Below are positions 4,218 to 63,698 of a stretch of DNA of 64,000 bases, piece by piece. The stretch is taken from NCBI RefSeq assembly GCF_028622115.1, contig NZ_CP097263.1, positions 9,311,501 to 9,375,500 of the forward strand, given 5' to 3'. The notes beneath the pieces were generated by a model that had not been told where the DNA came from, searched no databases, and saw only the letters and a program-made list of their open reading frames with translations. The position numbers and the translations under genes are program-made. This DNA comes from Kutzneria chonburiensis (lineage in GTDB: Bacteria > Actinomycetota > Actinomycetes > Mycobacteriales > Pseudonocardiaceae). Numbering within the stretch: position 1 is the stretch's first letter; each line of letters opens with the position of its first letter.

Positions 4218-4880
4218 TCATGCGCTCGCCCGGCTCAGATGCCGGCCCACTCGCACCAGATCCGGCCTCAGTCGCAGCAGCGCCGCCACGATCAGGCCCG
4301 TCACCAGGCCCTCGAACACCGCGATCACCGTGTACGTGCCGATCGTCGTCACCGCCACCGTCGTGGCCGGCACACTCGTCGCGCCGCCGACCGCGTACTC
4401 CAGGCTGTACAGGACCGATCCCGCGGTCACCGACACGAATCCCGCCAGCCCACAGGCGATCGCCGCCCAGAGCTTCGTTTTCGGCAGCACCTTTCGCAGG
4501 CCCAGGATCAGCGGATACCCCACCAGCGCCGGGATCAGCGCCATGTTCACCGCGTTGACCCCCAGCGCCGTCACCCCGCCGTCGCCCGCGAACAGGGCTT
4601 GCACCACGAGGACCACCGAGATCACCACCGGTCCCAGCCAGGGTCCCAGCAGCGCCACCGCCAGCGTCCCGCCCAGCAGATGGCCGCCCGTGCCCACCCC
4701 GATCGGGAAGATCGGCGCCTCCAGCACCAGGAAGAACGCCGCCGCCAGCCCGGCCAGCGGGATGTCCCGGTCCCGCAGCGACGGCCCCAGGTTCCGGCTG
4801 CACAGCGCCAGCCCGGCCACCGCCACCACGCCGCCGGCGATGGAGACCGGCGCATTCACGAACCCGTCAGGAATGTGCAT
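4218..4880 (-). CDS. cbiM: Cobalt ECF transporter substrate-binding subunit CbiM
   Basis: 220 residues beginning with MHIPDGF, the family signature in which the N-terminal amine and His2 coordinate Co(II). Six or so hydrophobic helices follow, with a second conserved histidine in GVGTGGHLLGG (near 61-71). It is the S-component that captures cobalt for the corrin pathway encoded upstream. The start ATG 4880 lies inside the end of cobA (14-bp overlap), so translation is probably coupled. Regulation is presumably through the upstream cobalamin riboswitch. Confidence 0.95.
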   Translation of the reverse strand: MHIPDGFVNAPVSIAGGVVAVAGLALCSRNLGPSLRDRDIPLAGLAAAFFLVLEAPIFPIGVGTGGHLLGGTLAVALLGPWLGPVVISVVLVVQALFAGDGGVTALGVNAVNMALIPALVGYPLILGLRKVLPKTKLWAAIACGLAGFVSVTAGSVLYSLEYAVGGATSVPATTVAVTTIGTYTVIAVFEGLVTGLIVAALLRLRPDLVRVGRHLSRASA

Positions 4881-5916
4881 CGGATCCCTCCTCCGGTCGG
4901 CTGTCGGTGGCCGCGTTTTCCCCGGCCAGTCCTGCTGTGGCGAGGTCTGCCCCGACGAGATCTGCCCCGGCCAGTTCTGCCCTGGCGAGTTCCGCCTCGG
5001 CCGGTTCTGTCCCGGCGAGGTCCGCTCCGGCCGGTTCTGCTCCGGCCGGTTCTGCTTCGGCGGGGTCTGCCCTGGCGACTTCTGCCTCGGCCCGTTCTGT
5101 TCCGGCGGGGTCTGCCCCGGCGAGTTCCGCGCCGACCGGTTCTGCCTCGGCCGGTGTTTGTCCGTCCGGTTTCGGTTCGGCGGGTTTCGGTCCGGCTGGC
5201 CTTTCCACGGCCAGCAGGTCGAGCGCAGCGACCTCGCCGACCACGAAGGTCACCGGCGGGCGCAGCCTCGCGTTCGGCAACTCGGCCAGCGTGCCCAGCT
5301 CGGTGCGCTGGTGCGGACGGCTGGCCGCGCTGATCGCCGCGACCGGGGTGTCGGCGGCCAGGCCGCCGGCCATCAGTCGAGCGGCGATGTCCCGCAGCGC
5401 GGACCGGCCGGTGAGCACGACGATCGTGCCGCCGACACGGGCGACGGCGTCCCAGTCGATGCGCTGGCGGTACTCGGGGTCGTCATTGCCGGCGATGACG
5501 GTCAGCGTGGTGGCGACCTGCCGGACCATCACCGGGATCCCGGCCAGCGCCGGCGCGGCGATCGCGGCTGAGATGCCCGGCACGATGTCGAACGGCACAC
5601 CGGCGGCAGCAAGCGCGATGGCTTCCTCGCCGCCGCGCGAAACGACGAACGCGTCCCCGGCCTTCAACCGGACCACCTCGCGGCCGTCCCGACCAAGTTG
5701 GACAAGAAGCTCGTTCACGTCTTTCTGCGGCCAGGCGGCACGGCTGCCTGCTTTTCCAACGCAGTGCAGAATTTCAGCCGAGTCGGCAATGGCAACGATG
5801 TCGGCCATCGACGGACGGTCGTAGACGACAACGTCGGCCGACTTGAGCAGTTCGACCGCGCGGCATGTGAGCAGACCGGGATCACCGGGGCCGGCGCCCA
5901 CGAGGTGCACGGTCAC
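4867..5916 (-). CDS. cobA: Uroporphyrinogen-III C-methyltransferase with repetitive C-terminal tail
   Basis: 349 residues. The first ~250 are a SUMT domain with VHLVGAGPGDPGLLT at the N-terminus, YDRPSM, and a central RLKAGDAFVVSRGGEE segment; family members more usually have GGDPFVFGRG there, so two positions are unusual. It makes precorrin-2 from uroporphyrinogen III using two SAM. The start is the GTG at 5916, overlapping the cobJ stop as GTGA. The last ~95 residues are a run of Ala/Glu/Gly/Pro-rich five-residue units resembling degenerate pentapeptide repeats, not part of normal SUMT. Its function is unknown and it may be a disordered spacer. Confidence 0.9.
   Translation of the reverse strand: MTVHLVGAGPGDPGLLTCRAVELLKSADVVVYDRPSMADIVAIADSAEILHCVGKAGSRAAWPQKDVNELLVQLGRDGREVVRLKAGDAFVVSRGGEEAIALAAAGVPFDIVPGISAAIAAPALAGIPVMVRQVATTLTVIAGNDDPEYRQRIDWDAVARVGGTIVVLTGRSALRDIAARLMAGGLAADTPVAAISAASRPHQRTELGTLAELPNARLRPPVTFVVGEVAALDLLAVERPAGPKPAEPKPDGQTPAEAEPVGAELAGADPAGTERAEAEVARADPAEAEPAGAEPAGADLAGTEPAEAELARAELAGADLVGADLATAGLAGENAATDSRPEEGSDAHS
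4912..5197 (-). repeat. 15-bp tandem repeat encoding pentapeptide-like tail of CobA
   Basis: About 19 imperfect 15-bp units are read in frame as five-residue blocks of the form A-(G/E/R)-(A/T)-(D/E)-(L/P), for example AGADL, AGAEP, ARAEL, AEAEV. The units differ mostly by single bases, as expected for replication slippage. Confidence 0.85.
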
Positions 5917-7549: not shown

Positions 7550-7760
7550 GTGCGACGCGTGTCAGTCGCGTGGCCGGTCTCCTGGCTCCCGGATCACCGC
7601 CGTCGCCGCGCCTTCCCAGGCTCGCGCCCAGTGGCTGTTCCTCTGCGGGACGACTTCCCGGTCACAGTGGCGGGACCGCGCCGGATTCGCACCGGCTTCC
7701 CGTAACCACGCTCGCGGAGCAGGTTAACCGACGAGTCGGCGGGCCGACACCGCCGACTAC
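7550..7760 (-). promoter_or_regulatory. Cobalamin (B12) riboswitch controlling the cob/cbi operon
   Basis: Read on the minus strand, the segment shows the conserved core in order: GGGAAGCCGGTGCGAATCC followed by CCCGCCACTGTGA (about 7720-7665), a second GCCACTGGG element, and the B12 box AGCCAGGAGACCGGCC (about 7588-7572). These match the adenosylcobalamin riboswitch consensus. Ligand binding would sequester the ribosome binding site just downstream (GGAGG at 7549-7545), shutting off cobM, cobJ, cobA and the cobalt importer when B12 is abundant. Outer boundaries (P1 stem) are approximate. Confidence 0.95.
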
Positions 7761-55448: not shown

Positions 55449-55462
55449 CATGACATGTCATG
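55449..55462. promoter_or_regulatory. Palindromic operator candidate upstream of the peptidase operon
   Basis: Perfect 14-bp palindrome CATGACATGTCATG, followed at once by another CATGTCA half-site (55463-55469). It lies 75 bp before the prolyl oligopeptidase start. The binding protein is unknown. Confidence 0.45.
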
Positions 55463-55946
55463 CATGTCAGGGCGGAGGGCCTGGGGCTGCGGGCGATTCG
55501 GGACACACCCCTTCTGACCTGCTGCTTTGGTCGGAGGACGTCCGGTTGGGTCCGACCCGGTCCGGACGTCTGCCGGCCTGGAGGCGGCCTGGGGCCGGCG
55601 GCGGTGCTGGTGCCGAACCACCCCTCAGCCTCACCCGCCCGTTGCCCTCGTCCATGCCGCCGTTAGCGCCGGGCCGGCCGGGTCAAGGCATCTTTCCCGC
55701 CTTGATGCGGCTGGTCCGGTGTTAAAGGATCAAGCAGGAGGGCTGGGTCTCGTCCGCGTGTGAAGCGGCCGGCCTCGGGTACTCCCGACCTGCGGTCCCT
55801 GATGTCCCTCCCCTGGCGTCAGGGGCCGCCTCGTGTCCGGGGTCAATGCCGCTGAGATCGAACTGAGCCGGCTCGGAGCCATGGCCACTGGTGCTGATGC
55901 CTATGGACCCTGCGCGCCGTCGTCGGCGGCGTTCTGGCGTGCCCTG

Positions 55947-56071
55947 CGGGCCGTGCCCGGAAGGGTCGCCCGGCCCGGCGGAGCATGAGGGCCGTTGGCG
56001 TGCCCTTCCGGGCCGAACGGCCCGGTGACCGGCGCTGCCAGGGCGACCGCCGCGCCGCCGCCGGCGGCGCG
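55947..56071. repeat. Cluster of GC-rich inverted repeats
   Basis: The arm CGGGCCGTGCCCGGAAGGG (55947-55965) is complementary to CCCTTCCGGGC...ACGGCCCG (56003-56024) with a 3-nt bulge. The second arm can itself fold as CCGGGCCG-AA-CGGCCCGG. A further perfect 9-bp hairpin CGCGCCGCC / GGCGGCGCG lies at 56051-56071. Such foldable DNA may be a terminator, REP-like element or transfer-related site. Confidence 0.6.
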
Positions 56072-56143
56072 CCTTGATCCCATAGAGCCAAATTCGGCAG
56101 TGCAACAAGGACGTGCATACGCGATTGGATCTATACTGCCTAG

Positions 56144-57493
56144 ATGGCGGGCCCGGACAGTGCGGACAGTGACGGCACAAACACTCGGGAGTCTGCGTCG
56201 GAGCCCGCGTCTTCGGAACACGGAAGCGATGTTGCCGAGTACGTTATTCGGGTCAAGGCAGCGGATCGTAGTGCTGTTACCTTGGGTGATGTGGTTGGTC
56301 CGGCGGCTGCGCATATGGCTGATGTTCAGCGTTCGTTGGGGTTGTCGGCGCTGGGAGATTCCGCTCGGCTTATGGACGGCGTTGGCGGTTTGCGTGGCGT
56401 AGCCGATTACCTTGCCTCGGTTAAGGGTATGGCTGCTAGGACTGCGGTTTTTGATGATGTGGTTGGTCCGGCGGCTGCGCATATGGCTGATGTTCAGCGT
56501 TCGTTGGGGTTGTCAGTGCTGGGAGATTCCGCTCGGCTTATGGACGGCGTTGGCGGTTTGCGTGGCGTAGCCGATTACCTTGCCTCGGTTAAGGGTATGG
56601 CTGCTAGGACTGCGGTTTTTGATGATGTGGTTGGTCCGGCGGCTGCGCATATGGCTGATGTTCAGCGTTCGTTGGGGTTGTCAGTGCTAGGAGATCCCGC
56701 TCGGCTTATGGACGGCGTTAGTGGCATTACGGGCGTCGCCGACCATCTAGCTTCGGTTAATATCGAAGCATTGGGGGCTGTGAAATTTTACGACGCGCTT
56801 ATGCCTACCATGACGACGTCGTTTGGCGTTCAAAATGCTGTCGACTACATGACAAGAAGTCAACAGACTGGCCTTGGGGTGGTCACAGCGCTTGAAGAAT
56901 TTAGGGCTGTAGTTCCGTCGGTGATCTCTAATCTGGCTGGGGCTAGTGGACCAATGTCTGGTGTTAACTTCTCTCGAACGGCATTGGCAGGCCTGGTTGA
57001 CGGTTCTCGGCGCATGCAAGAATTCGACGTTGTAGCAAGCTTTGATAACTCGGCGCTGTGGCGGGGTGAGCGACGGTTGGCCGAGGAAGCGGTCAACCGT
57101 TCGGTTGCCGAGCTACTTGAAGTGTTGGCGACAAGTACGGCGCGAGAGTCAATGAAGGATCCGGGTTCTTCGGTCAATGCTTTTGCTGCATTGGCGGATG
57201 ATGACCTGCGGCTCGGTCTTACAAACTATCCTTATGCGCCCACTTCGGCTGCTCTGGATGATGAAACTTCTTCTTTGCTTGACCAACTTCGCAGTAATAT
57301 CAATGATCGACTTGAACGTATGGGCATCTCTGGGGCGACCAGGGTTGTGATTGGAACCCTGCTATTTGAGTGTTCTGTCATTCTATACTTTAGTGACCAT
57401 GCTGCATTTGCTGCAATTAATGACGTCTTCTCGTTTCCCGCAAATATCCTAGGTTGGGGATTGTTTGTGTTTGCAATGAGCAAGAAGAAGTAA
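56144..57493 (+). CDS. Unknown protein with 56-residue tandem repeats and C-terminal membrane anchor
   Basis: 449 residues; ATG 56144 has no strong Shine-Dalgarno. After a ~45-residue Ser/Glu-rich start there are nearly three copies of a 56-residue repeat (about 49-104, 105-160, 161-205) beginning DVVGPAAAHMADVQRSLGLS and including RLMDGVGGLRGVADYLASV. The middle is helical without a recognised motif. Two hydrophobic segments near 400-418 and 428-445 end in SKKK, suggesting a membrane anchor with a cytoplasmic tail. Codon and base usage (many T/A third positions) differs strongly from neighbours, indicating transfer. I do not recognise the family. Confidence 0.8.
   Translation: MAGPDSADSDGTNTRESASEPASSEHGSDVAEYVIRVKAADRSAVTLGDVVGPAAAHMADVQRSLGLSALGDSARLMDGVGGLRGVADYLASVKGMAARTAVFDDVVGPAAAHMADVQRSLGLSVLGDSARLMDGVGGLRGVADYLASVKGMAARTAVFDDVVGPAAAHMADVQRSLGLSVLGDPARLMDGVSGITGVADHLASVNIEALGAVKFYDALMPTMTTSFGVQNAVDYMTRSQQTGLGVVTALEEFRAVVPSVISNLAGASGPMSGVNFSRTALAGLVDGSRRMQEFDVVASFDNSALWRGERRLAEEAVNRSVAELLEVLATSTARESMKDPGSSVNAFAALADDDLRLGLTNYPYAPTSAALDDETSSLLDQLRSNINDRLERMGISGATRVVIGTLLFECSVILYFSDHAAFAAINDVFSFPANILGWGLFVFAMSKKK
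56288..56760 (+). repeat. 168-bp in-frame tandem repeat, 2.8 copies
   Basis: Units start at 56288, 56456 and 56624. Units 1 and 2 differ at only a couple of bases over 168 bp; unit 3 is almost identical for about 90 bp and then diverges. The nucleotide-level identity shows recent duplication. Confidence 0.95.
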
Positions 57494-57532: not shown

Positions 57533-58345
57533 TCATCTGCTGGGGCTGAAAGTCAAGCTTGTTTGTATGAGCGGAAGTAGGTCTGAGGCTAGCCTGGGGC
57601 TTGTGGCAATAGTCTCGGCCGATTTATGCGTGTGAGGACTGCCCGTGCTATCGATTACCAAGGCGCCCGCTTCGCGGGCGATAAGGACGCCCGCTGCCGT
57701 GTCCCAGGGCTTATTTGCAAGGATCACCGTGGCGTCAATACGGCCTTCCGCGACCCAAACTAGATCCAGTGCGGCGGTGCCGAACATTCGGACTCGTTCG
57801 ACGTTGTCGGCCAACAAGGTTGTCAGCTTGAGTCGTTTGGCGTTCTTGGCGGCGGCGTCTTTGCCTACTGCGTAGTCGCCGATAGAGACGATGGCCTTGC
57901 TTAGGTCGTCGGTGGTGCTGGCGCGCAGGCGCTTGCCGTTGACGAAGGATCCGAGTCCTTCGGCGGCGGCGTATTGGAGGTCGAGGAACGGGGCGGAGAT
58001 GGCGGCGACGATGGGGGTGCCGTCGCGGACCAGGGCGAGGGAAGTGGCGCAGAGGGGGAGACCGTGGACGAAGTTGGACGTGCCGTCGATGGGGTCGAGG
58101 GTCCACGTTAGGCGGTCGGGGCCGGCGAAGGGGCGTTCGCCTTCTTCTTCGCCAAGGAAGCCGATCTCGGGGGTGGCCTCTTCGAGGTAGGCGGAGATCT
58201 CGCGTTCGATCTTCAGGTCGACTTCGGTGACGAAGTCGCGGTCGCCCTTCTGGTGGATCTCGTGGGGCGCTGCCTTCTTGATCAGGTTGTACCCGATCTT
58301 GACGGCGTTCTGGGCTATCTCGATGAGCTGGGTCGTCTGCCTCAT
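57533..58345 (-). CDS. Inositol monophosphatase family protein
   Basis: 270 residues from ATG 58345 with AGGAGGT 8 nt upstream. The metal-binding motifs are all present: GEEEGE (65-70), DPIDGTSNF (84-92) and KPWDTAAGVLIAREAG (212-227). It would hydrolyse a sugar- or nucleotide-phosphate (inositol-1-phosphate, PAP or similar); the true substrate is not evident. The start overlaps the stop of the DUF5919 regulator gene as ATGA, so the two are made together. In this mobile context a signalling role is more likely than inositol metabolism. Confidence 0.9.
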   Translation of the reverse strand: MRQTTQLIEIAQNAVKIGYNLIKKAAPHEIHQKGDRDFVTEVDLKIEREISAYLEEATPEIGFLGEEEGERPFAGPDRLTWTLDPIDGTSNFVHGLPLCATSLALVRDGTPIVAAISAPFLDLQYAAAEGLGSFVNGKRLRASTTDDLSKAIVSIGDYAVGKDAAAKNAKRLKLTTLLADNVERVRMFGTAALDLVWVAEGRIDATVILANKPWDTAAGVLIAREAGALVIDSTGSPHTHKSAETIATSPRLASDLLPLIQTSLTFSPSR

Positions 58346-59241
58346 TCGGTTACCTCCTGGGCGCGATCCCACATGGATTCGAAGACCTGGGTGAACGTGT
58401 CGTACAGGCCCATGGTGCCGTCCTTGCGCTCCATGACCAGCGTCGGCGACTCGACGCCTCGTGCATCCGGTAGGTAGGGCTGCACGATGCAAGAGCGGTT
58501 GTCGATGATGGTGATGTTGAAGCGGAGCGATTCGTCGTAGGTACGGATCTGTAGGCGGGCCTGGGCGTCGGGGGATAGTCGTGTGCCGATTCGGCGAAGA
58601 GCCTCGATGTTGAGCCGGGTTAGGGTGGCGAGGTGTCCGGGTGGTTGGGACTCCTCGCGTTCGCGTGCCTTGATGTGATCGCCTTCGGGCGCTAGAAAGA
58701 GACACTCGACGCTGGTGCCGGATTCAAGGAGGTCAAGAAGAGCCTTGTCCGGGTAGTGCTGGCACAAGAGGTTCAAGGACAAGCCGGACATGCGGATACG
58801 CTGTGCGCCGTCGAACAGTTCGTGTGGCGGAAGCTTGTGCATGAACTCGGATCGACTGGGGAAGACGGCGACGACATCGGCCACGCCTGGCGGCAGCGGC
58901 ATTGTCACCGCTGACGGTAGGGTGCTCGGCCTCGCTGTCACCGCGTCCGCCTTTCGGGGTGGCTCGGGGACGAAGTCGACGCCCCCGTCGTGCGGTTCGA
59001 AGAGCTCGGTGGCTGTCCACCCCGGAAACATCGCCTCCAGAATGCGGCAGTGGTCGGCGTATGGCAGCGTCGCCAACTCACCGGAAAGCCATCGGTAGAA
59101 CTGTGCCTTGCTCGGACCACCTCCGATCAAGTCTGGTTCGATCTTCTTGGCAACTCGGTCGTACTCACGCCGAAATGCCGTGTGTCCCTGTAGGTGTCGT
59201 TGCTTGAGTAGCACCTTAAGCAGCGTCGGCTTGTCCGTCAC
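58342..59241 (-). CDS. Helix-turn-helix protein with DUF5919-type C-terminus
   Basis: 299 residues, GTG start with GAGGGGTGAG upstream. The N-terminal ~80 residues form an XRE-like helix-turn-helix (GGGPSKAQFYRWLSGELATL, then HCRILEAMFPGW). A Pro-rich linker leads to a C-terminal domain (about 120-290) with RIRMSGLSLNLLCQHYPDK and LFLAPEGDHIKARE, fitting the actinobacterial DUF5919 family of putative regulators. It is divergent from the transfer operon, separated by a spacer with direct repeats, so it may control element activation together with its coupled phosphatase. Confidence 0.82.
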   Translation of the reverse strand: MTDKPTLLKVLLKQRHLQGHTAFRREYDRVAKKIEPDLIGGGPSKAQFYRWLSGELATLPYADHCRILEAMFPGWTATELFEPHDGGVDFVPEPPRKADAVTARPSTLPSAVTMPLPPGVADVVAVFPSRSEFMHKLPPHELFDGAQRIRMSGLSLNLLCQHYPDKALLDLLESGTSVECLFLAPEGDHIKAREREESQPPGHLATLTRLNIEALRRIGTRLSPDAQARLQIRTYDESLRFNITIIDNRSCIVQPYLPDARGVESPTLVMERKDGTMGLYDTFTQVFESMWDRAQEVTE

Positions 59242-59440: not shown

Positions 59441-59926
59441 ATGCCAGCACCGCAGGATGTGCGATTCACCGTTTCGTTCGACGAGTGGTTCCCGCAGGGT
59501 CTCTACCTTATGGGCGAGCTGACCCAGGCATTCGAATACCAATCGCAGGAGGAGAAGGCCAAGGGGCGGCCGGCTCGGCCGATCGTGGACCAGGCGACCG
59601 GGCTCTACGTGTACCGCGGGCAGTGCTCGGACCCGGCGGCGGAGAAGGCCCGGGAGCAGGCGTTCACGGTGGAGTTCGTGGCGAGTGTCCAGCCAGTGCC
59701 GCCGGCCGCGATCGCGCCGAATGTGCCGGTGCGCGCGATCGTGCTGGAGGGGATGACTGTCCGTCCGAGGGCGGAGGCGTCCGGACAGGCGAAGTGGCTC
59801 ACGTACCAGATCAGGGCTACCGGTATGCGCGCTGTGGCCACTGGTCCGCAGGGCGGCTCCGGTCGATCGGCGAAGGCTGCCGGCGATGGGGGCCAGAGCG
59901 AGGCTCCGAAGTCCAACGCCGCATAA
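59441..59926 (+). CDS. AICE-associated protein of unknown function
   Basis: 161 residues; ATG 59441 follows a strong AGGAGG. Residues 1-135 look like a compact beta-rich domain (VRFTVSFDEWFPQGLYLMGEL, GLYVYRGQCSD, VRAIVLEGMTVRPRA) and the last ~30 are Gly/Ala/Ser-rich and probably disordered. No catalytic motif is recognised. As first gene of the operon behind the divergent regulator it may be an early accessory, replication or transfer factor. Confidence 0.75.
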   Translation: MPAPQDVRFTVSFDEWFPQGLYLMGELTQAFEYQSQEEKAKGRPARPIVDQATGLYVYRGQCSDPAAEKAREQAFTVEFVASVQPVPPAAIAPNVPVRAIVLEGMTVRPRAEASGQAKWLTYQIRATGMRAVATGPQGGSGRSAKAAGDGGQSEAPKSNAA

Positions 59927-61878: not shown

Positions 61879-62058
61879 GTGACAAGCGTAGCGGACCGCG
61901 CGCACGGGTCGTCAAGCCCCCTGTCGTGTAAGGGTTTCCGAGGTCGTAGCACTCGAAAGTGTGTGCGATGCGGGAAGTTCGCTCGCTTCGAGCCGGGTCG
62001 TCAGGTGTGCAGCCTGTGCCTGGGTCACCTTCCGCTGATCTATCCCAAGGCGGGGTAG
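61879..62058 (+). CDS. Small zinc-ribbon protein
   Basis: 59 residues from GTG 61879, with AGGGAGCGGAAC upstream. A Ser-rich start is followed by CVRCGKFARFEPGRQVCSLC, two CxxC knuckles typical of a zinc ribbon. Small zinc-ribbon proteins are common in AICE transfer operons. Function not known. Confidence 0.6.
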   Translation: MTSVADRAHGSSSPLSCKGFRGRSTRKCVRCGKFARFEPGRQVCSLCLGHLPLIYPKAG

Positions 62059-62165
62059 GCGCTTCCTGTTCATGGGTCGTGGATCGGCCGACTCGACGAC
62101 GCCCGTCGTCTGTGCTCGGTCGCAAGCCAAAAGCGGCGTACTCGAACAGAAAGGCTCTACCTGTC

Positions 62166-63698
62166 ATGGGGAACCTCAAGCGTGACGCGGAAGCGGCCGG
62201 CTGTCTGGTCCTGTTGGGCTTGGCGGTGGGCTGGTTGGTCGCGAAGCTGGTGAAGACTGTCTTGTGGTTGCTATGGAAGGGAATCCGGCACGGCCTACCG
62301 GCGCTGTGGCGAGGGGTGAAGTGGCTGAACCGCCACCCTCGGACCACAGCGACTCTGCTTGTGCTTGCCGGCCTGGTGACCCTCGGGGCGGTGCTGCGGG
62401 CCTGGGCGGTGCTGGCGTTCGTGGGCCTGGTGCTCGTCGGCCTGGCCGTCGTTGTCGGACCGGTGTTGGCGTGGCGGGCCCCGGTGTGGTGGGAGCGATG
62501 GGTGTGGCGCTTCGTGCGGTCCTGGTGGCTGAGGTGGGTGTTCTACGTGCCGCGTTGGGAGTCCTGGGCGCGAGGCTGTGGCCTGGCGATCGTGGATGAG
62601 GCCACGCTGGCGGTGTCCCTGCCGGTGATCATCAAGGTCACGACGGGGCCGGCGTGGGATGAGGTCCGGGTGTCGATGGCGGTCGGGCAGAAGACGGAGG
62701 ACTTCGAGGAGCGGGTGCGGGAGTTGGGGCACGCTCGGCGGTCGGCTCGGTGTGTGGTGCGGGAGTTGTCGCCGGGTGTGGTGTCGGTGGACTTCCAACG
62801 TCGTGACCTGATCGCCGGCGTGGTGCCTGGCGCGTCGATCCCGGTGGAGATGCTGGGGGACGCGGTGGACCTGTTCTCGGTGCCGGTAGGGGTGTCGGAG
62901 TACGGGCGGGTCCTGCGAATGCCGCTGTTCGGTTCGCACACGTTCTGTGCGGCGACAACCGGCGCGGGTAAGAACTCGTTCACGTGGGCTCCGTATCCGC
63001 TGCTTGCTCCGGCGGTGCGGGACGGCCTGGTGACCGTCTCCGGGATCGACCCGAAGGGGATGGAGCTGGCTTACGGGCGAGGCTTGTTCCGCCGGTACGC
63101 GGACACTCCGAAGGCGGCGGTGGAGCTGCTGGAGGAGCTGGTGGAGTCGATGCAGGCGCGCAAGGTGAGGCTGGCGGGTCGGCGGCGCAAGGTGGTGATC
63201 TCGCGGGACAACCCGTTGGAGATTCTGGAGTTCGACGAGATCGCGGCGTTGACCAAGTACCTGGGGGACAAGAACCAGCGGGCGCGGATCGAGTCGTTGG
63301 TGGGTCTGCTGTTGACGCAGGGGCGTTCGTTGGGGTTCGTGGTGCGGGGCTACGTGCAGGAGCCGACGAAGGAAACCGTTGTGTGGCGGGAGCTTTTCCC
63401 GTACCGGATGGCGATGGCGCTACCCACTGCTTCCTATGTGGACATGGTGTTGGGTGACGGCGCGTACGAGCGGGGCGCGCGGGCGGACCGGATCCCGGCG
63501 GACACCCCGGGTGTGGGGTACGTGCTGGAGGAGTGGCGTCGGGTGCCGGTGAGGGGTCGGGTCGCGTGGACCGGTGACGCCGGGATCGAGGAGTTGGTGG
63601 ACTACGTCAACGCGCCGGCTCGGGGCGACGACATGTCCGGTGGTCGGGTCGTGGAGTTCTTGCGGCGCAACGGGAATGCGGGCGGTGAGGCGGCGTGA
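62166..63698 (+). CDS. FtsK/SpoIIIE-type DNA translocase for conjugative transfer (TraSA/TraB-like)
   Basis: 510 residues from ATG 62166. Two or three membrane segments near 12-38 and 62-105 are followed by a motor domain with Walker A-like ATTGAGKNS (263-271), IDPKGME (294-300) and Walker B LEILEFDE (351-358), then LLTQGRSLGF and a translocase C-terminal part. In AICEs this single protein moves double-stranded DNA between mycelia. The first Walker A glycine is Ala and the residue after Lys is Asn, an unusual loop. The repSA-like gene overlaps its stop as GTGA. Confidence 0.9.
   Translation: MGNLKRDAEAAGCLVLLGLAVGWLVAKLVKTVLWLLWKGIRHGLPALWRGVKWLNRHPRTTATLLVLAGLVTLGAVLRAWAVLAFVGLVLVGLAVVVGPVLAWRAPVWWERWVWRFVRSWWLRWVFYVPRWESWARGCGLAIVDEATLAVSLPVIIKVTTGPAWDEVRVSMAVGQKTEDFEERVRELGHARRSARCVVRELSPGVVSVDFQRRDLIAGVVPGASIPVEMLGDAVDLFSVPVGVSEYGRVLRMPLFGSHTFCAATTGAGKNSFTWAPYPLLAPAVRDGLVTVSGIDPKGMELAYGRGLFRRYADTPKAAVELLEELVESMQARKVRLAGRRRKVVISRDNPLEILEFDEIAALTKYLGDKNQRARIESLVGLLLTQGRSLGFVVRGYVQEPTKETVVWRELFPYRMAMALPTASYVDMVLGDGAYERGARADRIPADTPGVGYVLEEWRRVPVRGRVAWTGDAGIEELVDYVNAPARGDDMSGGRVVEFLRRNGNAGGEAA

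Follow-up and report, generated by a model that had tools for sequence, protein, structure and literature searches.

The gene at positions 56144-57493 (+ strand) of the window, the whole stretch of 64,000 nucleotides analysed here, raises the question of what a protein of no recognised family, built on near-identical repeats and encoded at the rim of a mobile element, might do. Its open reading frame runs from an ATG at 56144 to a stop codon at 57491-57493 and encodes 449 amino acids; a -10-like TATACT, found by eye closely 5′ of the gene, suggests a leaderless start. From the letters of the DNA, an earlier note had called it a transferred gene of foreign base composition with recently duplicated 168-bp in-frame repeats and two C-terminal helices as a membrane anchor.

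The repeat gene and the element that carries it

The repeats bear out that description. As determined by Tandem Repeats Finder, the array extends over 56287-56719 (period 168, 2.6 copies, 98% match), and its score of 838 is the highest among the 13 arrays reported for the window. The longest exact self-match of the gene spans 171 nt at an offset of 168, in frame, and another spans 60 nt. At the protein level there are three units of 56 amino acids (56291-56458, 56459-56626 and 56627-56794, + strand). Copies 1 and 2 differ at 2/168 nt, whereas copy 3 differs from copy 2 at 2 nt over the first 31 codons and then at 34/75 nt. Since the first two copies are near identical and the third is diverged past codon 31, an older generation of repeats appears to have been re-duplicated recently. 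Elsewhere in the window, an imperfect 15/45-bp tandem array lies at 4920-5152 and a cobalamin riboswitch at 7555-7725 (- strand; Rfam RF00174, 98.7 bits).

The absence of a recognisable family, also claimed before, held in every comparison. No Pfam or NCBIfam family scored above its curated cut-off, PADLOC gave no match, the best PHROG match had an E-value of 0.002, and searches of plasmids and phages returned nothing; no homologue of known function was found in the searches made. A Pfam match to the Xre/MbcA/ParS C-terminal domain (E 0.0009, 19 residues) was rejected because its score of 19.6 bits falls short of the cut-off of 24.5 and it is confined to the repeat, and matches to fumarate hydratase among solved structures (E about 1) were taken as chance. 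The gene is single-copy in its own 10.4-Mb genome, where the next match has an E-value of 0.21.

Comparison with congeneric genomes fixes the boundaries of the mobile element at whose edge the gene had been placed. The left flank of the repeat gene matches four of six other congeners at 89-92%, and in all four the match stops at 55465. The same four genomes display an empty site: the left flank passes without a break into the sequence on the right side of the integrase, and ATGTCATGCAT is present once. The remaining two congeners show greater divergence (75-78%); their matches reach query positions 760 and 720, and the right flank is nearby. Because the empty site of the four congeners holds a single copy of this 11-mer, the AICE spans 55455 to about 67083: the attL core ATGTCATGCAT (11 bp) occupies 55455-55465 on the + strand, and the 11-bp attR lies beyond the window end, at 4573-4583 of locus L110, equivalent to about 67073-67083 of the window. 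A 22-bp imperfect repeat, also considered as att, gave way to the 11-mer in the light of the empty sites. In this AICE the repeat gene comes first, and its description as transferred is borne out by this position and by the empty sites.

The backbone begins right of the repeat gene with an inositol monophosphatase-family (IMPase) gene (57533-58345, - strand; PF00459, E 1.9e-59) and a DUF5919 regulator (58342-59241, - strand; PF19319, E 8.3e-29). They are followed by a conserved frame (59441-59926, + strand), which by eye resembles a 152-aa frame of the element in genome G015, and by a TraB-type FtsK/SpoIIIE-like transfer protein (61959-63698, + strand; PF01580, E 0.002, below the cut-off). Past the window end, in L110, a RepSA gene (PF20199, E 3.9e-74) and an integrase gene (PF00589) both score above the cut-off. 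The element thus comprises the integrase, RepSA-type Rep, att repeats and empty site of an AICE, together with an FtsK match (PF01580, E 0.001-0.002) that stays below the cut-off. At E<=1e-15, relatives of the DUF5919 regulator occur in 68/259 same-family genomes, a count that includes the own genome. By eye, IMPase-like frames adjoin some of them (L062, L072 and L109), and in G015 a NUDIX gene occupies the IMPase position beside the regulator.

A constant hairpin and variable repeats

A full-length protein search among 297 same-family genomes matched the C-terminus of two further proteins. A profile built on the C-terminal ~80 residues, run over 390 same-family genomes at E<=0.01, matched 8/390; after rejection of G078 and G016 as unlike, the gene itself and five relatives were left, in G096 (truncated at the contig end), G076, G015, G146 and G169. 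The last is weak, with a profile E-value of 0.0016 and a pairwise E-value of 0.002 at best, and was missed by alignment A3 at E<=0.5. That alignment gave matches in 62/390 genomes, the strong ones being its own five source sequences and the next having an E-value of 0.013. On reading of their frames, the candidates at L002, L005, L012 and L013 were dropped as unrelated, L005 stemming from the full-length search. A class-wide draw of 394 genomes yielded one match, the own genome; the family is rare. Scans of viral contigs gave no confirmed member, scans of genome contigs added none beyond G096, and neither the L017 relative compared with phages nor the L016 (G015) relative compared with plasmids found a match.

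The six proteins have a common layout: the start is polar, the middle varies, and the C-terminus forms a hairpin whose loop resembles INDVFSFPAN. When their last 75 residues were compared by BLAST, eight of the ten pairs without G169 had E-values of 1.3e-7 or better, and the two other pairs E 6e-5 and 0.007; the N-terminal parts gave nothing better than E 0.023 and cannot be aligned (all of these E-values refer to the six-sequence set). As judged by hydropathy and alignment, two hydrophobic segments end the repeat protein, the two C-terminal helices of the earlier note: helix 1 at about residues 401-417 (57344-57394, + strand) and a short helix 2 at about residues 435-446, which with its basic tail KKK is encoded by 57446-57490 (+ strand; alignment and charge count). 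The short loop between them (57395-57445, + strand; alignments A1 and A3) bears INDVFSFPAN, and the family motif, read by eye, is [IV][SN][DE]xFGFPAN. Hairpin and loop motif are both present in the repeat gene; membership of G169 by these features is weak, and in G146, as in G169, the motif is degenerate. The loop carries a net negative and the tail a net positive charge in the repeat protein and its five relatives (6/6), and the stretch ahead of helix 1 is net positive in 4/6, G096 and G169 being the exceptions. According to the positive-inside rule, these charges point to an N-in/C-in topology in which the repeats and the basic tail are cytosolic and the short loop lies outside. Structure prediction, one of the checks named in the earlier note, gave two single-sequence models, both all-helical and of low confidence (mean pLDDT 38.8 and 47.3), too poor for use.

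Beyond this anchor, the genes duplicate parts of themselves independently of one another. The longest exact duplications are 171 and 60 nt in the repeat gene, 60 nt in G076, 47 nt in G146 and 48, 27 and 18 nt in G169; the complete G015 gene reaches just 13 nt, and the truncated G096 fragment has none. Exact in-frame duplications hence occur in four of the five complete genes or, with the repeat gene set aside because its repeats were the reason for choosing it, in three of four, and the duplicated sequences are unrelated between genes. Every listed exact repeat of at least 13 nt is in frame, at spacings of 168, 336, 144, 108, 318 and 90 nt. As a control, 2/267 called genes of at least 200 aa in the same and related loci contain an exact repeat of at least 40 nt, and one of the two is the G169 relative, so that 1/266 other called genes do. 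Among 96 low-GC frames, the same threshold selected four: three belong to family members, the repeat gene among them, and the fourth is antisense to one member. Because four of the five complete members duplicate unrelated sequence, we regard this as a pattern of diversification, in agreement with what had been noticed in the repeat gene.

Relatives near other AICEs, which the earlier note had suggested looking for, do exist. The G015 relative resides on a RepSA AICE, where it faces a NUDIX gene and a DUF5919 relative, followed by FtsK-like (by eye) and RepSA genes; an HD-domain gene starts 20 nt downstream of it on the same strand (L016 7774-9233), a possible operon. The others lie on mobile-type elements or near a phage gene. 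In G076 the relative adjoins a serine recombinase (PF07508) on an element with FtsK-like and, by eye, SpdB-like genes, and in G096 it precedes a NUDIX gene on a contig with SpdB-like and FtsK-like genes (by eye). The G146 relative is part of a 4.4-kb element at tRNA-Leu (L112 4605-8977), bounded by 41-bp att repeats and carrying an integrase (PF00589) and a xis-like gene (by eye); two small minus-strand genes of this element resemble, by eye, a toxin-antitoxin pair. In G169, the relative lies on a contig of 3.6 kb, next to a major capsid gene of SU10 type (E 1.9e-84).

The family is no fixed companion of the AICE backbone. In 60 loci around DUF5919 relatives, no open reading frame reached E<=1 with the family profiles; with alignment A3 at E<=10, an added repeat-gene control scored 91 bits in the same loci and the next best match 4.7 bits. 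Since these 60 loci gave no family frame, the repeat gene is cargo and not a constant partner of the DUF5919/IMPase module.

A candidate replication origin at the border of a cargo slot

The DNA just 5′ of the gene is common to the window and G015, whereas the two proteins are without match outside the anchor. This shared DNA contains a GC-rich hairpin (56051-56071, + strand; 9-bp stem cgcgccgcc/ggcggcgcg, loop gcc) and a conserved 27-mer, CTTGATCCCATAGAGCCAAATTCGGCA (56073-56099, + strand), and the repeat gene begins 44 nt behind the two. The shared 26-mer was found with up to three mismatches in 91/200 same-family genomes, and its reversed control in none among the matches listed; in the window it occurs once, with an expectation of 0. 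A perfect stem of at least 7 bp precedes 49/64 distinct related sites, compared with 51/3200 single-base shuffles. Over the 64 sites, conservation begins with the GC-rich hairpin and ends after CTTGATCCCATAGAGCCAAATTCGGCA, at no more than 0.4 bits per position from +27 on.

The site is tied to one class of Rep. RepSA proteins of 58 genomes split into two score classes, class B comprising those of 360 bits or less. A site upstream on the same strand and within 15 kb accompanies at least 24/48 class-B Reps, a lower bound because the count used the 42 motif sites among those listed, and 0/52 class-A Reps; the count covered 100 RepSA matches of at least 247 bits and left out five partial ones from G010, G011 and G046 (331-354 bits). 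The distance from site to Rep for the 24 is 3.1-9.5 kb, no differently oriented Rep lies within 15 kb of the sites used, and 18 of the 42 have no listed RepSA gene downstream. A second RepSA gene of the same genome (G000:C1:9557072-9558421) belongs to the other, higher score class.

Published work provides a frame for this site. A 2011 AICE survey (PMC3218068; Ghinet et al.) distinguishes two RepSA subfamilies, SAM2 and MR2, and predicts that MR2 Reps recognise their own dso binding regions; it also reports pC194-like nick sites for AICEs, taken from an earlier review. The nick site of pC194, CTTG^AT, is the reverse complement of the sequence given in PMC5037232. The G015 Rep is 46.9% identical to the Rep of pMR2 over 97%, and the assignment of the window's Rep to RepSA(MR2) rests on the score class that it has in common with the G015 Rep (251 and 328 bits). 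In pMR2 (NC_006910.1), the best match to the site, 21/27, lies on the Rep strand between int and the next genes, directly behind a GC-rich stretch able to pair, and surpasses the best of 30 one-strand shuffles of pMR2 (19/27). A Nocardia record has a 22/27 site and a Nonomuraea record an 18/27 site, each behind a stretch that looks hairpin-like by eye; the shuffles covered pMR2 alone, these two stretches are longer, and 18/27 is by itself within chance. We infer that hairpin and 27-mer are the double-strand origin (dso) of the RepSA(MR2) subfamily, with the putative nick at CTTG^AT. A promoter is the less likely reading of the 27-mer because the hairpin stands at a nearly fixed distance and the site is tied to one Rep class.

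Behind the site, the DNA changes in character. The median GC content per 700 nt at 62 sites falls from 0.693 before the site to 0.536 after it, and the drop amounts to at least 5 points at 52/62 sites. For the repeat gene itself, GC is 54.3% and GC3 0.50, compared with 69-72% GC in the 1-kb windows on its left and 64-69% in those on its right past 58 kb. The foreign composition reported earlier is thus real, but it is usual for the slot and not special to this gene. From site to site the slot holds different, unrelated low-GC genes; as far as known, the repeat gene and its G015 relative are the only family members placed in it. At one site (L139 488-1444), a low-GC (0.42) multi-helix membrane protein without Pfam match lies directly behind the candidate dso.

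What the slot holds was examined with 30 cargo frames from 29/64 sites, hand-selected by length and low GC, a non-random choice that sometimes passed over the nearest frame. Defence-type Pfam domains are present in 13/30 of these selected frames, or in 14/30 if the generic AAA_23 is counted: ApeA, Fic, GmrSD (2), ABC-3C CTD10 (2, at one locus), a DpnII/MboI nuclease, Mrr with nSTAND3, AAA_21/AbiEii-type (2), a DNA methylase, an EcoRV nuclease and a Schlafen AlbA_2 domain. Others lack a defence look (ParA, HAD, NT5C, DUF6119, GMT-wHTH and a below-cut-off MauJ), and many are without match. Against PADLOC, 31 cargo proteins (including the repeat protein, itself unmatched) matched 252 families, compared with 16 families for the 22 nearest called genes upstream of the site; these figures are matches per family and not counts of proteins with any match, and upstream genes with matches include HEAT-ARM_XIII (5e-54) and AbiEii (4e-8).

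A proposed defence cargo and its alternatives

Taken together, the slot, the mobility and the independent duplications make a membrane-anchored sensor/effector the most likely product, and we propose, at somewhat less than even confidence, that the repeat gene is defence or exclusion cargo of a RepSA(MR2)-type AICE. Defence or exclusion, already favoured in the earlier note, is the best candidate function because the slot in related elements often holds restriction, ApeA, GmrSD, Mrr-nSTAND3, ABC-3C, AbiEii-like and Schlafen-type genes. In this model, the C-terminal two-helix hairpin would anchor the product in the cell membrane, and the long helical repeat region would lie on the cytosolic side. 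Detection of an invading phage or competing element would fall to the repeats, which might act directly or assemble on it; the hairpin, as effector or docking part, might stop infection or entry at the membrane in the manner of abortive infection or superinfection exclusion. The repeats would change by unequal recombination while the anchor stays constant, and recognition could therefore shift quickly.

A narrower role as entry-exclusion or conjugal-immunity factor of the AICE is rather unlikely. Membrane-bound repeats would then block an FtsK/TraB-type pore or related incoming AICEs, either replacing a Pif-like NUDIX protein or acting alongside it. The AICE-type elements with a NUDIX or IMPase neighbour in the window, G015 and G096 speak for such a role, as does the NUDIX protein Pif of pSAM2, which confers conjugal immunity according to PMC3218068. 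Yet the G146 relative sits on its 4.4-kb tRNA-Leu element, in which no transfer gene was seen, the G169 relative adjoins a phage capsid gene, and the recognisable slot genes are mostly of anti-phage type and not immunity genes. Pif shares the element type and the NUDIX or IMPase neighbour with the repeat gene; it differs from the repeat protein, which lacks a NUDIX domain as judged by Pfam, is predicted to be membrane anchored and has variable repeats.

Also unlikely is a selfish or nearly neutral cargo gene, an orphan that evolves fast, owes its repeats to slippage and plays no part in defence. AICE cargo is often decaying, as stated in PMC9513070, and the codon changes between copies 2 and 3 (8 synonymous, 14 nonsynonymous) reveal only weak constraint; nevertheless, all five complete genes keep intact open frames, the listed exact repeats are spaced in frame and the anchor is conserved, which indicates selection on the protein. 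Quite improbable is a toxic membrane protein that keeps the element in the population by addiction, as toxin half or as partner of the HD, NUDIX or IMPase neighbour. The small membrane hairpin with its basic tail and the HD-domain gene close behind the G015 gene would suit it, but no partner is constant (the neighbour is an HD-domain gene in G015 and a convergent IMPase gene in the window) and a toxin would not need a long variable repeat region. Repeats commonly change in copy number among surface proteins; an outward-facing surface or contact protein varying under phage or immune pressure, a possibility raised in the earlier note, is nonetheless highly improbable, as the start is acidic and not signal peptide-like by eye, only the last ~50 residues, behind the repeats, are hydrophobic, and the charges of loop, tail and pre-helix stretch favour two cytosolic ends with a short outside loop.

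The proposed defence cargo has counterparts among known systems. Hotspots of phages and their satellites, reportedly described by Rousset et al. in 2022, are said to be fixed slots in which unrelated defence genes swap. The AICE slot is likewise fixed; it differs in beginning at what is probably a rolling-circle origin. Two-helix membrane effectors of abortive-infection and CBASS-like systems combine a cytosolic sensor part with a short membrane hairpin. The predicted layout of the repeat protein is similar, whereas it has no PADLOC or Pfam match and no recognised nucleotide-signal partner. In staphylococcal rolling-circle plasmids, the DSO-qacC-SSO arrangement, in which a mobile cargo gene adjoins the double-strand origin (PMC5037232), is a precedent for cargo beside such an origin, as the repeat gene adjoins the candidate dso; the AICE replicon is of another type, and unrelated cargo genes contrast with one spreading gene. 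pMR2 (NC_006910.1) resembles our element in its Rep, related to that of G015, and in its hairpin-like stretch and 21/27 site, but behind its site lie genes for a hypothetical protein and a glycosyltransferase instead of the repeat-hairpin family. A Streptomyces AICE survey records variable cargo with restriction and abortive systems (PMC9513070), and a survey of Actinobacteria defence restricts its mobile-element analysis to plasmids and prophages (PMC10482375). Searches of the open literature, with subscription journals mostly outside this scope, yielded no title or abstract opening that describes the repeat-hairpin family or an MR2-dso defence slot.

On a more tentative note, we suggest that MR2-type AICEs possess a defence cassette slot bordered on the left by their rolling-circle origin, in which cargo may be swapped at the Rep nick site, and that the repeat gene founds a self-diversifying membrane defence family with a fixed two-helix effector and a sensor rebuilt by in-frame duplications. 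The hairpin and the CTTGAT...ATTCGGCA site would constitute a concrete candidate for the MR2 dso predicted in PMC3218068. This candidate site would mark where MR2-type elements exchange cargo and may serve as a sequence handle to new actinobacterial defence genes without known homologues. The repeat-hairpin family, in turn, would represent a bacterial immune-type protein that may alter its specificity through repeat duplication.
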